This document shows positions 6,276 to 12,167 of a stretch of DNA of 33,457 bases, piece after piece (within the stretch, counting starts at the first letter, position 1; every line of letters starts with the position of its first letter). The position numbers were made by a program, and so were the translations under genes. Source of the stretch: Blastococcus sp. Lineage in GTDB: Bacteria > Actinomycetota > Actinomycetes > Mycobacteriales > Geodermatophilaceae. The notes under the pieces were generated by a model, which did no database searches, was not told where the DNA came from, and was given only the letters and a program-made list of their open reading frames with translations. The stretch is taken from NCBI GenBank assembly GCA_025465355.1, contig JAODNN010000151.1:1-33457 (forward strand). The letters run 5' to 3'.

Positions 6276-7985
6276 GTGACCCCCCGCCCGGCCCGTGTCG
6301 CCTCCGGCGACCTCGAGGCTCCGCTGTGGCGTCTGCTCAGCGCCAGCGACAGGGAGGAAGCCACCGCGTTCCTCGCCCTGCTCGACGAGACCGCCGACAC
6401 CTTCGAAGCGGCCGCCGAACCGCGGTGGGTCGCCTGGCGGCACGCGTTCGCCGCCCGCCGCGCGGTGATCGAGAACGATCCCGAGGCGGCCGCGGCCGAC
6501 GTCTCGACCGCCCGTGACCTGCTCGACAAGATCGCTCCCTCGGCAGAGACCGCGCTGCTGATGGCCTACCTGGCGCACGTCCAGGTGAGCGCCGACCATT
6601 TCGACGGCGCGATGCTGCTGGCCATCGACGCGAGCCTGCTCACCGAGGGCCCGGCCGCCGGCACACCGTCGCGGGCGCTGCTGCAGGCCCACCGGTGGCT
6701 CTCGCTGAGCCTCCTGGGGCTCGACCTCGAAGAGCCGGCCGTCGCCCACGCGATGCGCGGCCAGCACGTCGCCGCCGCGCTGCGCCAGACCCAGGAGCAG
6801 TGGCGGATGCGGCTGCTGTCCGCCCAGCAGCACACCGAGCTCGCCCAGACCGTGCTGCGCCAGGGCGACCGGGACCGGGCCCGCGAGCTGGCCGCCGAGG
6901 CGATCGCCGGCGCCGTCTCCGCCCGCGAGATGGCCTGGGAGCCCGAACCGGCCGAGAGCTACCTGCTCGACGTCGTCCAGGCGTGGGCCATGAAGTGCGC
7001 CGGCGACCTCGACGGCGCGCTGGGCCCGTTGCGCCGGGTCCGCCGGCGGGTGCAGGAGGAAGGCGGAGTCTGGCTGCGCGGCTACACCGATCTGGTGCTC
7101 GCCCGGCTGCTCGCCCGACTGGCCGAACGGGACGGTGACGAGGAGCTCGGCGAGGAGGCCATCGGCCTGCTGGTCGACGCGTCCGGGGCGTTCGTCGCGG
7201 CCGGTGACCGGCGCCGCTACCGGCAGAGCCTGCTCGAGCTGGGCCGGAACAGCGCCGACCTGGGGCGCCCGGCGGAAGCGCTGCACTGGCTCGAGGCCTA
7301 CCGAGCCGACACCGGGCGGGCGCACGCGCGCGGCCGGGAGATGTGGGCGGAGATGTTCGTCCGCCGCAGCCGGCTGCGCGAGGCCGAGCGGCAGGCCGCG
7401 CTGCTGCGCCGCCACGCGCTCGAGGACCCGCTGACCGGTCTCGGTAACCGGCGCAGCGCCGAGCGGCGGCTGGGCGCCATCCGGCTGGGTGAGCAGCCGC
7501 TGTCGCTGGCCGTCGTGGATGTCGACCGGTTCAAGGAGGTCAACGACGTCGCCTCGCACACCCACGGGGACGCCGTCCTGCGCCGGGTCGCCGACCTGCT
7601 CCGCGAGCACAGCCGCACCGGGGACGAGGTCTACCGATGGGCAGGTGACGAATTCCTGGTGGTCCTTCCCACCGCGACGGAGGCGCAGGCCGTCGTCGTC
7701 ATGGAGCGGTTGCGGAGCGCCGTCGCCGGCGCGAACTGGAGCGACCTCGAGCTGCCCGACCCCGTCACCGTCAGCATCGGGGTGGCCACTGCTCCGGCGG
7801 TGACCGAGGACCAGCCGGACGGCCGAGCGGAACGCGCCCCCGCGATCGTCGGCTGGCGCGCCCTGTTCGACAGCGCCGACCTGAACCTGTTCTCCGCCAA
7901 GCGGGGTGGCCGCAACCGGGTCCGGGCGCCGGGTGGCGCCCAGCCGGAGGAGAGTGCACCATCACCTGCGACGGAAACGACATGA
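6276..7985 (+). CDS. Diguanylate cyclase with N-terminal helical-repeat (TPR-like) region
   Basis: Predicted to make cyclic di-GMP from two GTP. The protein is 569 aa with no membrane segment. Residues 1-370 are Ala/Leu/Arg-rich helices resembling a TPR sensor (repeated AL, EA and GR pairings such as GRPAEALHWLEAY). The GGDEF domain begins at LEDPLTGLGNRR and carries VVDVDRFKEVND for metal binding. The signature is AGDEF (456-460) instead of GGDEF, a substitution found in active enzymes. The inhibitory I-site RxxD is intact (RTGD, 447-450), five residues upstream. The GTG start has a TGGAGGG ribosome-binding site. It lies 13 bp upstream of a close paralog, in the same transcription unit. Confidence 0.9.
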   Translation: MTPRPARVASGDLEAPLWRLLSASDREEATAFLALLDETADTFEAAAEPRWVAWRHAFAARRAVIENDPEAAAADVSTARDLLDKIAPSAETALLMAYLAHVQVSADHFDGAMLLAIDASLLTEGPAAGTPSRALLQAHRWLSLSLLGLDLEEPAVAHAMRGQHVAAALRQTQEQWRMRLLSAQQHTELAQTVLRQGDRDRARELAAEAIAGAVSAREMAWEPEPAESYLLDVVQAWAMKCAGDLDGALGPLRRVRRRVQEEGGVWLRGYTDLVLARLLARLAERDGDEELGEEAIGLLVDASGAFVAAGDRRRYRQSLLELGRNSADLGRPAEALHWLEAYRADTGRAHARGREMWAEMFVRRSRLREAERQAALLRRHALEDPLTGLGNRRSAERRLGAIRLGEQPLSLAVVDVDRFKEVNDVASHTHGDAVLRRVADLLREHSRTGDEVYRWAGDEFLVVLPTATEAQAVVVMERLRSAVAGANWSDLELPDPVTVSIGVATAPAVTEDQPDGRAERAPAIVGWRALFDSADLNLFSAKRGGRNRVRAPGGAQPEESAPSPATETT

Positions 7986-7998
7986 ACGGTGACGCTTC

Positions 7999-10893
7999 GT
8001 GAGCGCCACGCACGGATGGGACAGGTGGGACGCAACGGACAGGGGACGGCGCGCCTTCGAACTGATGCTCGACAGCGGCGTGGACGACGTGCACAGTGCG
8101 CTCGTGCCACCCGGAGCCCTGCACCATCGGGTCACCGCTGCCCTTGCGAACTGGCAGCTGGACGACGCCGAGGAGCTGCTCGCCGGAGTCGAGAGCGACC
8201 CGACTCCCTACGTCGCCGCCGAACCGGCCGCCGGCGCCTCACCCGACGAGCCGGACGACGCCCCCGCCCCGCTGAGCCGCGCCTGGGCCGACACACTGCG
8301 CGCCGAGCTTCTCGTGCGCCGCCTGCGCGTCGCCGGCTTCACCCTCGTCGGCGAGCCGGTGACCACCTCCGCGGACGCCGAACCCGAGCCGGCCCTCGAC
8401 CTGCACGCCGGGGTGGCCGAGCTGATCGACGGCGGCTCCGGCGCAGACGGCGACCCGCGCGCCGAGTCCGCCTCGCACGCCGCCCTCGCGATCGCGCTGG
8501 TCCGCTCGGCCAAGGCCGCCTTCGACGCCTCCGACGACGACGTCCAGCGCGCCGCCGGCCTGGCCCGGCACGCGCGCATCGAGCTGCTCTCCCGGCGCAT
8601 CGACGCCGCCATGGACGAGGCCGTCGAGGCGGCCAGCCTGCTCGACCCGGTGCTACCGCCGAGCGCGCTCATGGTCGACACCCTCGGCACGCTCGCCGCC
8701 GTGCTGGCCGACCTCGAGCTCATGCCGCTGGCGCTGGACTACCAACGGCGCGCGCACGAGGCCGCGATGGCCGCCGCCGCGGATCCCGACATCCTCAGCC
8801 CCGAGGACGGCACCCCCGACGAACTCGTCGCCGGCACCGCCACCCGCCTCGGCGAGCTGTGTGCCGAGCTCGGCGAAAGCCTGCTCGACGACGGCGTCCC
8901 CGAGTCGGCCGCGCCCTACTTCGCCGAGGCTCGCCTGCTGGCCGGGCAGGCGCTGACCCTGCTGCCGCCCGAGTCCCCCAGCGTCGTCACCGCGCAGGTG
9001 GTGCACGGCTGGGCGCTGGTCGGCCTCGGCGAACACCAGGCGGCGACCGGGCCGCTGCGGGCCGCCGTCCGCCTCACGTCGGCGACCGCGGACCGCGCCC
9101 AGCTGGCGTCGGCACAGCTCGCTCTCGGTCGTGCACTGCGCCGCCAGGGCGACGGCCTGGCGGCCGACCAGCACCTCGTCTCCGCGCTGGCGCTGGGCAC
9201 CGAGCACGGTCTCCCCCGGCTGCGCCGGGCCGCCCTCCGCGAGCTGTGCACGCTGCACGCCGACCTGAACGACGCCGGCCGCGCGCTGCCCTACCTGCAG
9301 GCCTATCTCGCCGACGAGCTGGACCGCGTCGACGAGCGGCGCACCCGCTGGGTGGAGCTGTTCGGCCGCCGCAAGAGCCTGCTGGAGACCGAGCGGGCCG
9401 CGGGACAGCTGCGCCGGCAGGCCTACGAGGACCCGCTCACCCGCCTGCCCAACCGCCGGTACGCGGAGGCGCGCCTCGACGGGCTGCTGTCCGCCGGTGC
9501 CGCACCCGCGCTCGCCGTCGTCGACGTGGACCGGTTCAAGTCGATCAACGACGCGGTCGGCCACCCCGGTGGGGACGTCGTCCTGCGGACCGTCGGCGAA
9601 CTGCTGGTCGCCGGCGTCCGTGACACCGACGAGGTGTGCCGCTGGGCCGGTGACGAGTTCGTGATCCTGCTGCCGGACACCACCGCCGAGCAGGCCGAGC
9701 GGGCCCTCGAGCGGATCCGCCGTTCGGTGGCGAAGCACGACTGGTCCGACCTCGAGCTCGAACTGCCCGTGACGATCAGCGTCGGCATCGCCTCCGCTGC
9801 CCGGGGCGACGACCGGCGGACCTTGTTCGCCGCCGCCGACGGCGTCCTCTACGACGCCAAGCGCAGCGGCCGCGACCGCGTCGTTCGCCTTTCCGGCGTG
9901 ACGCAGACCCGCGCGGGTGGCAGCCCCCTCGACCACCTGTTCGGGCCGCCGCCCGGCGCTGCCGCCGAGGCCCCCGACCAGCCTGAAGGCACCACCGAAG
10001 CACCCGACACGGCCGCCGCCGACTCCCCGGACGTGACCGCCCCGGCAGTTAGGGTCGACGCCGTGCAGCCTTCCCCGCTGGACGACGCCTCCTCCTCGCG
10101 CGCCGAGGCCGGCGGCTTCGCTCCCCTCCTGCTCGAGCCGCAGCCGACCCTCGACCCGCCGCTGAGCCTGGGCGGAGCGGGCCATCCGCTGCTGGGCCCT
10201 GTTCCCGGAGCGACGCCGGTCACCGGGCCGGTCCTGCCGGCGGAGGCGCCCGAGCCCCTGGCGCCCGCCGTCCCGGCCGCATCGGTGGAGCCCGAGGTCA
10301 TCTGGGGCACCGGCCGCACGACCGAGCAGATCCTCACGCTGGTCCGCGAGGCCCGGCGTGAGTTCCCCGATCGGCCGGCGCTCGTGCTGCGGGCCACCGC
10401 GGAGACGCTCGTCGCGCTGGCCGCCGAGCACGATGCGTACACGACCATGGACGCCGCCGCGCTCGCCGCCGCCGTCGGGCCGCTGCCCGAGCCCGCGGGC
10501 CGGGTCCGGGTGCTCTCCGGCGGTGGGGACCCCCGCGTGGCCGCAGAGGCTGCCTTCGTCGCGCGGGTCAGCGGCACCGAGGCCGTCCGGGTGGACGACG
10601 TGGCCGGCAGCCGGCTGCGCTCCCTCCTCGCCGACGGCTCGCTGTTCACCGGCGCCGACTGCCTGATCGTCGTCGCCGGCATGGACGCCTCGCTGGCCAC
10701 CGTGATCGGCGCGATGAGCGACCTGCCCGTCGTGGCGGTGCCGACCTCGGCCGGTGAGCCTGGGGCGCTCGGCGGTCTCGGCGCCCTGCTGACCATGCTC
10801 AACTCGGCCGCACCGGGTGTCACGGTCAGCAACATCGACAACGGCTACTCGGCCGGTGTCTTCGCGGCCCGCGTGGCCCGGCGATCGCGGTAG
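7999..10893 (+). CDS. Diguanylate cyclase fused to a degenerate LarB-like (PurE-fold) domain
   Basis: A 964-aa open frame. Residues 1-470 are TPR-like helices paralogous in layout to the previous gene. The GGDEF domain (about 474-635) has VVDVDRFKSIND, AGDEF (550-554) and an I-site RDTD (541-544). A Pro/Ala-rich linker follows (about 636-765). The C-terminus (766-964) matches nickel-pincer cofactor enzyme LarB: EVIWGTGRTTEQI, VVAGMDASLATVIGAMSD, AVPTSAG, LLTMLNSAAPGVTVSNIDNG. LarB uses Glu180 and Cys221; here the aligned residues, with the same spacing of 41, are Asp896 and Ala937. The LarB DVGVAG and VGYG segments are also lost. The domain is therefore probably not an active LarB. An in-frame GTG at 10063 might start it separately. 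larC follows after a repeat. Confidence 0.85.
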   Translation: MSATHGWDRWDATDRGRRAFELMLDSGVDDVHSALVPPGALHHRVTAALANWQLDDAEELLAGVESDPTPYVAAEPAAGASPDEPDDAPAPLSRAWADTLRAELLVRRLRVAGFTLVGEPVTTSADAEPEPALDLHAGVAELIDGGSGADGDPRAESASHAALAIALVRSAKAAFDASDDDVQRAAGLARHARIELLSRRIDAAMDEAVEAASLLDPVLPPSALMVDTLGTLAAVLADLELMPLALDYQRRAHEAAMAAAADPDILSPEDGTPDELVAGTATRLGELCAELGESLLDDGVPESAAPYFAEARLLAGQALTLLPPESPSVVTAQVVHGWALVGLGEHQAATGPLRAAVRLTSATADRAQLASAQLALGRALRRQGDGLAADQHLVSALALGTEHGLPRLRRAALRELCTLHADLNDAGRALPYLQAYLADELDRVDERRTRWVELFGRRKSLLETERAAGQLRRQAYEDPLTRLPNRRYAEARLDGLLSAGAAPALAVVDVDRFKSINDAVGHPGGDVVLRTVGELLVAGVRDTDEVCRWAGDEFVILLPDTTAEQAERALERIRRSVAKHDWSDLELELPVTISVGIASAARGDDRRTLFAAADGVLYDAKRSGRDRVVRLSGVTQTRAGGSPLDHLFGPPPGAAAEAPDQPEGTTEAPDTAAADSPDVTAPAVRVDAVQPSPLDDASSSRAEAGGFAPLLLEPQPTLDPPLSLGGAGHPLLGPVPGATPVTGPVLPAEAPEPLAPAVPAASVEPEVIWGTGRTTEQILTLVREARREFPDRPALVLRATAETLVALAAEHDAYTTMDAAALAAAVGPLPEPAGRVRVLSGGGDPRVAAEAAFVARVSGTEAVRVDDVAGSRLRSLLADGSLFTGADCLIVVAGMDASLATVIGAMSDLPVVAVPTSAGEPGALGGLGALLTMLNSAAPGVTVSNIDNGYSAGVFAARVARRSR
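10050..10065 (+). promoter_or_regulatory. Possible internal leaderless start for the LarB-like module
   Basis: TAGGGT (10050-10055), 7 nt, then an in-frame GTG (10063) inside the linker-coding part of the GGDEF gene. The arrangement copies the leaderless starts elsewhere in the window. If used, it would make a 276-aa LarB-like protein without the cyclase. No good -35 is visible. Confidence 0.35.
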
Positions 10894-10988: not shown

Positions 10989-12167
10989 GTGACCATCGGG
11001 TGGCTCGATCTCGCGGCCGGCGCGAGCGGCGACATGCTGCTCGGCGCCCTGGTCGATGCCGGGGTCCCGCTCGACGTGCCGGCTGCTGCAATCGCCGCAC
11101 TGCCGGTCGAGCCGATCCGGCTGGAGGCCGAGCAGACGGCCCGCCACGGCCTGGGGGCCACCCGCGTGCACGTGCATGCGCCGCCGTCGTCGGAACACCG
11201 CACCTGGGCCGGGGTCCGCACCATGCTGACCGAGGCCGCCCTCGCCCCCGCGGTCAGGGACGTCGCCCTGGCGGTCTTCGAGCGGCTGGCGGTCGCCGAG
11301 GGCCGGGTGCACCGGGTGAGCCCCGACGAGGTGCACTTCCACGAGGTCGGCGCCCTCGACGCGCTGGCCGACGTCGTCGGGGTGGTCGCCGGGTTCGGGC
11401 ATCTCGGGCTGGAGCGGCTCACCGCCTCGCCGGTGGCGCTGGGCAGCGGCTCGGCGCGCGGCGCGCACGGCGTCGTCCCCGTCCCCGGGCCGGCCGTGCT
11501 GGAGCTCCTCACCGGGGTGCCGATCGTCGCGGGGCCGGTTCCGGCCGAGATGTGCACGCCCACCGGCGCCGCCCTGGTCGCGGAACTGGTCCGCGAATGG
11601 ACGACGCTGCCGCCGATGCGGGTGCGGCGCGTCGGCATGGGCGCGGGCGGCAGGGACCCGGTCGAGCTGCCGAACGTCGTCCGCCTGGTCCTGGGCGAAC
11701 CCGCTGCGGACCCGGCTGCGGCCGACCCCGTCGTCCTGGAAGCCAATATCGACGACCTCGACCCCAGGCTGTGGCCGGGCGTCCTCGACACCCTCTTCGC
11801 CGCCGGCGCCTCCGACGCCTGGCTGACCCCGATCCTGATGAAGAAGGGGCGCCCCGCGCACATGCTGTCGGTGCTCTGCCGACCCGAGGCGGTGGCCGGA
11901 GTGCAGGCGGCGGTCTTCGCGACGACGTCCACCATCGGGCTGCGGATCGTGCCGGTGGGCAAGCTGGCGCTGGAGCGGACGACGGGATCGGTGGAGGTGC
12001 TCGGCGGCCGGGTCGGCGTGAAGGTCGCCGTCGACGGCGGACGGGTGGTCAACGTCAGCGTCGAGTACGAGGACGTCGCTGCGCTCGCCCGTGACCGGGG
12101 GCTGCCTGTGAAGGAAGTGCTCCGGGCGGCCACCGCGGCAGCGGAAACTGCCTATCCCGTCGGCTGA
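10989..12167 (+). CDS. larC: Nickel-pincer cofactor biosynthesis protein LarC
   Basis: LarC inserts nickel into the pyridinium dithio-carboxylate mononucleotide in a CTP-dependent reaction, the last step of the cofactor made for lactate racemase-type enzymes. The 392-aa protein is one uninterrupted frame. In Lactobacillus plantarum the gene is split and needs a frameshift. Conserved family segments are DLAAGASGDMLLGAL at the start, VHFHEVGALD (from about residue 115), CTPTGAAL, EANIDDLDPR, and TPILMKKGRPAHMLSVLC in the C-terminal domain. The GTG start is 6 nt after GATGAT. It follows the LarB-like fusion gene; larE and larA are not in this window, so the cofactor's user cannot be named. Confidence 0.93.
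   Translation: MTIGWLDLAAGASGDMLLGALVDAGVPLDVPAAAIAALPVEPIRLEAEQTARHGLGATRVHVHAPPSSEHRTWAGVRTMLTEAALAPAVRDVALAVFERLAVAEGRVHRVSPDEVHFHEVGALDALADVVGVVAGFGHLGLERLTASPVALGSGSARGAHGVVPVPGPAVLELLTGVPIVAGPVPAEMCTPTGAALVAELVREWTTLPPMRVRRVGMGAGGRDPVELPNVVRLVLGEPAADPAAADPVVLEANIDDLDPRLWPGVLDTLFAAGASDAWLTPILMKKGRPAHMLSVLCRPEAVAGVQAAVFATTSTIGLRIVPVGKLALERTTGSVEVLGGRVGVKVAVDGGRVVNVSVEYEDVAALARDRGLPVKEVLRAATAAAETAYPVG

Follow-up and report, generated by a model that had tools for sequence, protein, structure and literature searches.

A GGDEF protein that ends in a LarB-like domain

The window analysed here is a stretch of 33,457 nucleotides from Blastococcus sp. (Geodermatophilaceae; assembly GCA_025465355.1, contig JAODNN010000151.1), and our subject is a gene on its forward strand at 7999-10893, which reads as one frame of 964 residues with no internal stop. 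As the initial annotation had claimed, this single frame joins TPR-like helices, a GGDEF domain (E 3.5e-38) and a domain related to LarB (148.6 bits), the enzyme of nickel-pincer cofactor synthesis in which Cys221 forms a covalent adduct with the pyridinium ring and Glu180 is taken to be catalytic. The coordinates given at that time, 9400-10893, do cover the GGDEF and LarB parts, but the gene itself starts near 7999. Its features are as follows.

7999-10893, forward strand: whole fusion gene, 964 residues; GTG start, 13 bases 3' of the upstream gene
7999-9402, forward strand: mostly helical, TPR-like N-terminal region, residues 1-468; a long helix (426-475) runs into the GGDEF domain in the AlphaFold2 (AF2) model
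9421-9879, forward strand: GGDEF domain, residues 475-627; matches Pfam, PleD and other solved cyclases
9619-9630, forward strand: RxxD inhibition site, Arg541-Asp544
9646-9660, forward strand: active-site motif AGDEF, residues 550-554; RWAGDEF in 88/92 and RWAGDEY in 4/92 fused frames
9898-10275, forward strand: predicted disordered linker, residues 634-759; predicted local distance difference test (pLDDT) below 50
10291-10887, forward strand: degenerate LarB-fold domain, residues 765-963, by AF2 model, Foldseek, LarB model and alignment with LarB structure 7mj0
10525-10530, forward strand: Gly843 (LarB Ser127, lost) and Asp844 (LarB Asp128, kept), by 7mj0 alignment and codons
10612-10614, forward strand: Arg872, a new fixed residue of the fused lineage, where LarB, including 9/9 separate family LarBs, has Gly
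10684-10686, forward strand: Asp896 at the LarB Glu180 position, acid kept, by 7mj0 alignment and codons
10807-10809, forward strand: Ala937 at the LarB catalytic Cys221 position, by 7mj0 alignment and codons

TPR repeats are matched weakly in the N-terminal region (best Pfam match TPR_12, E 0.0067, 17 bits against a cut-off of 30.1), and the model of this region is helical and solenoid-like. The GGDEF domain scores 131.4 bits against a Pfam cut-off of 23.8. The residues D509, K514, N517, D518, D552, E553, K621 and R625, to which we assign the catalytic and metal-binding roles presumed from PleD, are each present in all 29 rows of alignment A3 (29 full-length proteins out of 57), as are R541 and D544 of the RxxD site. 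With these tested residues intact, the fusion is a GGDEF protein and, by sequence, a plausible diguanylate cyclase. Its motif begins with Ala rather than Gly; a Vibrio AGDEF cyclase, VCA0965, is reported to be active and to make cyclic di-GMP (PMC3974145). The c-di-GMP-binding anti-sigma factor RsiG, in its twin-motif form, is reported for 16/16 Geodermatophilaceae species (PMC8325347).

The AF2 model of the LarB-fold domain, built with 49 sequences, has a mean pLDDT of 87.5 and a predicted template modelling score (pTM) of 0.86. Its best solved matches in Foldseek are LarB structures, including the complexes with nicotinamide adenine dinucleotide (NAD) and adenosine monophosphate (AMP), with E 1.6e-17 for 7mj1, TM 0.77-0.86 and 39-41% identity; PurE structures rank after them, from E 3.1e-4. 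The full-length model (29 sequences; mean pLDDT 73.8, pTM 0.48) runs in order from the helices through the single long helix (426-475), the GGDEF domain and the disordered stretch (634-759) to the LarB fold.

Loss of the LarB cysteine

The LarB match, to NCBIfam model NF033503, spans residues 765-961 and lies below the curated equivalog cut-off of 175 (152.6 bits when scored from the genome). Six other fused domains score 73.9-169.7 bits against this model, and four Cys-type LarBs score 243-255. The alignment with Lactiplantibacillus plantarum LarB (7mj0; E 4.4e-32), on which equivalences were counted by hand with the codons checked, places Ala937 at Cys221, Asp896 at Glu180, Gly843 at Ser127 and Asp844 at Asp128. 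It bears out the replacement of the cysteine by Ala937 noted initially, together with the 41-residue spacing between positions 896 and 937, the altered DVGVAG and VGYG segments and the presence of AVPTS and NIDNG.

The loss of the cysteine extends to every fused domain read. Across 92 fused frames of the family, the Cys221 position holds Ala in 70, Ser in 10, Thr in 6, Gly in 4, Pro in 2 and Cys in none, and it is Cys in 9/9 separate family LarBs. A set of named loci, taken as the best 80 of 237 and overlapping the family set in assemblies so that the two are not independent, gives Ala in 49, Ser in 8 and Thr in 6 with one row cut (63 fused loci plus the window) and Cys in 12/12 separate LarBs; five further rows labelled as standing alone are contig-edge fragments with Ala. 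Ser127 is likewise replaced in all degenerate domains, of which we count 101 (Gly 50, Ala 46, Pro 2, Val 2, one gap), and is Ser in 9/9 separate family LarBs. The N-terminal DxxRxxRTG segment of LarB, invariant in 16/16 Cys-type rows, has each of its positions kept in at most 9 of 64 fused rows. By these sequence tests the domain in the window does not qualify as a functional LarB: it scores below the cut-off and lacks Cys221, Ser127 and the N-terminal segment, while fold and kinship hold.

The other substitution that had been put forward as a changed catalytic residue, Asp896 for Glu180, did not stand as a mark of lost catalysis. Asp at this position is found also in intact, Cys-bearing LarBs (9/9 separate family LarBs, 8/8 canonical copies and 9/13 loci from the order), so Asp there is normal in Geodermatophilaceae LarBs. 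The fused frames carry Asp in 85, Glu in 6 and Gly in 1 of 92, and the degenerate domains Asp in 93, Glu in 7 and Gly in 1 of 101. The Asp128 equivalent, Asp844, is retained in 99/101, and newly fixed residues are Arg872 (91/101), Ala897 (101/101) and Gln at position 920 (80/101; Glu in the window). Cys888 is kept in 100/101 and occurs in 5/9 separate family LarBs too.

Retention without the nickel-pincer pathway

Among 112 family genomes, LarC was found in 82, LarE in 72 (counted only when over its cut-off) and LarA in 35. The 101 genomes that carry the degenerate domain divide into 62 with LarC, LarE and a second LarB match, 28 with none of these and 11 mixed; the second LarB of the 62 was counted by match, and 8 copies were checked for Cys. 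As for INDEPENDENCE from the pathway, the 28 genomes lack a second LarB match, LarC, LarE over cut-off and LarA; all are at least 95% complete, and they belong to five genus groups. Because the first scans had left candidates unscored, the 28 were rescanned with the LarB model and every candidate was scored. In each genome this recovered the degenerate domain at 118-179 bits; the only other hit was a single weak one, 24-43 bits over the rear of the model, which is taken to be PurE. In 27 of the 28 the domain is in frame with GGDEF, and in G046 the frame is broken.

Selection was compared through the ratio of nonsynonymous to synonymous substitution rates (dN/dS) by the Nei-Gojobori method (NG86), whose pairs are non-independent and whose values are rough at the G+C content of these genomes, so that they serve to compare regions only: family-wide they are 0.26 for the GGDEF domain, 0.42 for the helical part, 0.85 for the linker and 0.39 for the LarB part (4073 pairs; linker 3940), and among 27 of the 28 pathway-less genomes 0.26, 0.47, 0.90 and 0.42, respectively (351 pairs; linker 322). 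The degenerate domain is still under purifying selection in the pathway-less genomes, and it must therefore have a job outside nickel-pincer synthesis. The comparative evidence of most weight, namely these 28 genomes, an intact second LarB beside LarE and the larC gene directly downstream of the fusion, lay beyond the view of the initial annotation.

That second LarB lies on another contig (C36) of the window genome, adjoins LarE, and carries the cysteine (LTACAPG) and Asp (AGMDGAL). The single LarC of this genome is the window copy, and no LarA match was found in it. The same combination, a second LarB match with LarC and LarE and no LarA, occurs in 32 of the 101 family genomes with the degenerate domain. 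There may be a non-LarA user of the nickel-pincer cofactor in these genomes; such users have been suggested for approximately 15% of genomes analysed in one study (PMC11796402).

Two of the pathway-less genomes hold fused domains that lack the Cys and still exceed the NCBIfam LarB cut-off, at G090:C82:38469-39062 and G093:C1:2485195-2485788, with no other Lar protein found in either genome. Automatic annotation is likely to call both of them LarB.

Distribution of the fusion

Within the genus, 16/16 genomes contain a relative at 74-100% identity together with a second match to LarB, at 43-46%. The profile built from the fused domain matches 111 of 112 Geodermatophilaceae genomes, and the DNA at the best match was read in 110 of the 112. 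GGDEF and the LarB-like domain share a single frame in 92 of the 110, and on this recurrence we reject a chance frame and also a sequencing error, which the initial annotation had named as something that would refute it. The remaining 18 comprise 7 frames cut by a contig end (Ala in 7/7), 2 frames broken before the LarB part (G046 and G091, Ala in both) and 9 separate Cys-bearing LarBs. On the question raised initially, whether the two domains are always separate genes with an intact Cys, they are fused and Cys-less in 92 genomes, and nine deep-branching ones (genus groups g5-g7, G066-G074) have a separate, Cys-bearing LarB. Beyond these three deep genus groups, the degenerate domain is present in 101/103 family genomes, and the other two are cut at contig ends. 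In these, G080 and G097, the TPR-GGDEF gene sits at the contig end, and G080 was for this reason rejected as a lineage without the LarB part. The broken frames at L215 (G046) and L185 (G091), and a stop near the start of the GGDEF domain at L035 (G009, one of the 92), are stops or shifts in single genomes, either assembly errors or real.

Named loci with the fusion come from Blastococcus, Geodermatophilus, Modestobacter and Trujillonella, and from Klenkia only as a contig-edge fragment. The helical N-terminal region has no match in the nine deep family genomes (74-98% complete) or in the seven other genomes of the order searched. The origin or arrival of the cyclase gene itself may postdate the split of G066-G074.

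The profile scans of family, order and class scored part of the first-look candidates. No fused form was seen beyond the family among 298 order and 394 class genomes, evenly drawn and partly overlapping the family set, and the top score outside the family was 225 bits; the fused domains score 212-422, which overlaps this maximum, so that score alone does not decide. We read 26 of the outside loci, 13 each from order and class, selected for long frames or high scores. No GGDEF match was found in these 26, and a motif search found Cys in 13/13 order and 12/13 class loci, with L274 unmatched by the pattern. Viral contigs gave no relative; 94 plasmid records match, all below 60% identity, and 8 of 12 among the matches listed are annotated larB.

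Origin of the fused domain

In a tree of 73 rows, which samples 28 of the 101 degenerate domains, all sampled fused domains form one clade with a Shimodaira-Hasegawa-like approximate likelihood ratio test (SH-aLRT) value of 100 and a stem of 0.54 changes per column. The window gene is followed by larC:

10989-12167, forward strand: larC, nickel insertion protein, 95 bases downstream of the fusion (PF01969, E 3.1e-131; TIGR00299, 194.1 bits over a cut-off of 90)

Among the separate LarBs of the order, those with the best scores against the fused domain lie next to larC as well. This would fit a larB that was taken out of a larB-larC pair by the TPR-GGDEF gene upstream of it; we infer such a capture.

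Another group of LarB loci stands apart from both the larE-adjacent and the fused clades. It comprises L245-L248, three of which hold LarE, LarB and LarC and one LarE and LarB; LarA lies close by in at least two of these genomes (G047 and G056).

Comparison with known systems

LarB itself (NF033503; L. plantarum 7mj0 and 7mj1), which carboxylates nicotinic acid adenine dinucleotide (NaAD), shares with the fused domain the fold over approximately 200 residues, Asp128, the acid at position 180, AVPTS and NIDNG, and in the window the larC neighbour. The fused domain differs in the absence of Cys221, Ser127 and DxxRxxRTG, in the changed DVGVAG and VGYG segments, in a window score below the family cut-off, in being joined to a cyclase and in being kept without the pathway in 28 genomes. 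The best-scoring relatives outside the fused clade, at up to 225 bits with the fused-domain profile, are separate actinobacterial LarBs beside larC (L237, L249, L252; Nocardioides), but these have the Cys and a full LarB score, and no GGDEF was found in their stretches. PurE/AIR carboxylase shares the core fold (AIRC, PF00731, 38.7 bits over a cut-off of 30), whereas the purE model TIGR01162 gives only 27.7 bits against its cut-off of 149.6. Soluble cyclases such as PleD (1w25) and VCA0965 share with the fusion a GGDEF domain, the residues of catalysis and of the RxxD site that were tested, and a long helix ahead of the domain; they differ in that the accessory C-terminal domain of the fusion is a former cofactor enzyme.

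Many diguanylate cyclases have unknown inputs, and to our knowledge none has been described that includes a retired enzyme of biosynthesis like LarB. In keeping with the initial annotation, we found no description of a LarB-GGDEF fusion in open-literature titles and abstract openings, which is weak evidence, as subscription papers fall mostly outside that scope.

A LarB pseudoenzyme as a putative regulatory module

We consider it reasonably probable that the protein is a soluble diguanylate cyclase regulated by the LarB pseudoenzyme at its C-terminus. The earlier proposal of a LarB/PurE-fold pseudoenzyme on a plausible cyclase is supported at the sequence level, with Cys in none of the fused frames. 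The pseudoenzyme most likely regulates cyclic di-GMP synthesis by nucleotide binding, by assembly, or by both. In a forebear of most Geodermatophilaceae, a single event would have fused the larB of an ancestral larB-larC pair to the TPR-GGDEF gene upstream of it, and the fused LarB would have lost its pyridinium-adduct cysteine and been re-fitted for another use. Two GGDEF domains would be paired by the helices of the N-terminal region and the long helix (426-475), the cyclase would make cyclic di-GMP, and this product would restrain the cyclase at the RxxD site. The LarB-fold domain, on its flexible tether of approximately 125 residues, would set how the cyclase domains are held together, probably through a bound ligand. 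Cyclase activity, regulation by the LarB part, the ligand and the oligomeric state are what we infer here. The first ligand candidates would be nucleotides of the NaAD, NAD or AMP kind, because LarB uses NaAD and CO2 and releases AMP (PMC11796402). A narrower version, in which the cyclic di-GMP synthase is gated by pyridine nucleotide, with the dead LarB domain as a sensor of NaAD, of NAD or of the balance between AMP and NAD, is a tentative proposal that we think more apt to be wrong than right.

Several observations weigh against this reading. Evolution is faster in the LarB part than in the GGDEF domain, and the low pTM of the full-length model means that no contact between the LarB part and the cyclase is predicted. 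AGDEF is a variant of the GGDEF motif, and 43 of the 92 fused frames reach the 5' edge of the stretch read, so that the helical part is incomplete there. Two of the 28 pathway-less domains exceed the LarB cut-off of 175 (G090, 177.3; G093, 178.7; the other 26 lie below). Finally, the loss of Ser127 and the change in VGYG could mean that the old pocket no longer binds a nucleotide.

An alternative has a modest chance of being correct, in which the LarB fold is kept solely as an oligomer that gathers cyclase domains, with no ligand. PurE-fold enzymes form oligomers, and motifs of the pocket (GTSD, DVGVAG, VGYG) have changed with AVPTS and NIDNG largely retained; the difficulty of this alternative is that residues of the motif loops are constrained, with Asp844 in 99/101, an acid at 896 in 100/101, Arg872 in 91/101 and Ala897 in 101/101. 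The same near-invariance of Asp844 and of the acid at 896 would suit an enzyme turned to another reaction independent of Cys221, whose product or reaction signals to the cyclase, and so would Cys888 (100/101), though Cys stands there in 5/9 separate family LarBs as well. We regard this as improbable: Ala, Ser, Thr, Gly and Pro are all tolerated at the Cys221 position, and Cys888 is unlikely to replace Cys221, given that the domain model makes it the opening residue of a strand that runs at its other end into the AGMD loop.

It is very improbable, in our estimate, that the domain is a partner of the nickel-pincer pathway, tying the synthesis of the cofactor to cyclic di-GMP through contact with intact LarB or LarC. 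The gene for LarC does lie 95 bases downstream in the window and within the fetched stretch of 51/92 fused frames, and a second LarB match, LarC and LarE accompany the degenerate domain in 62/101 genomes; yet the nearness of larC also fits plain descent from a larB-larC pair, and the domain persists, at similar dN/dS, in the 28 genomes of at least 95% completeness that have no LarA, other LarB, LarC or LarE. The least credible account, which the conservation data contradict, is that of a passenger or artefact, either a remnant of larB in decay or an assembly error. The long stem branch (0.54) and the broken frames in three genomes (G009, G046, G091) could be read this way, but the degenerate domain is present in 101/103 family genomes outside the deep groups and predicted to be well folded, and its dN/dS is about half that of the linker. 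A regulatory LarB pseudoenzyme on a soluble cyclase remains the reading we prefer. If its narrower version, with gating by pyridine nucleotide, is true, NAD supply would be linked to cyclic di-GMP control in Geodermatophilaceae, and a cofactor-synthesis enzyme would have been turned into a second-messenger sensor. One family holds the whole series, from the separate Cys-bearing LarB through the fused Cys-less form to the fused domain alone after loss of the pathway, and the purpose of a retained pseudoenzyme becomes directly testable with a short ligand list and natural controls.

Upstream neighbour

Scans for promoters and terminators gave no hit. The gene upstream of the fusion encodes a related protein:

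6276-7985, forward strand: GGDEF-domain protein (RWAGDEF, RxxD site) that has no LarB part, by profile searches and motif count

Genus stretches that reach far enough 5' show relatives of this GGDEF neighbour upstream of the fusion.

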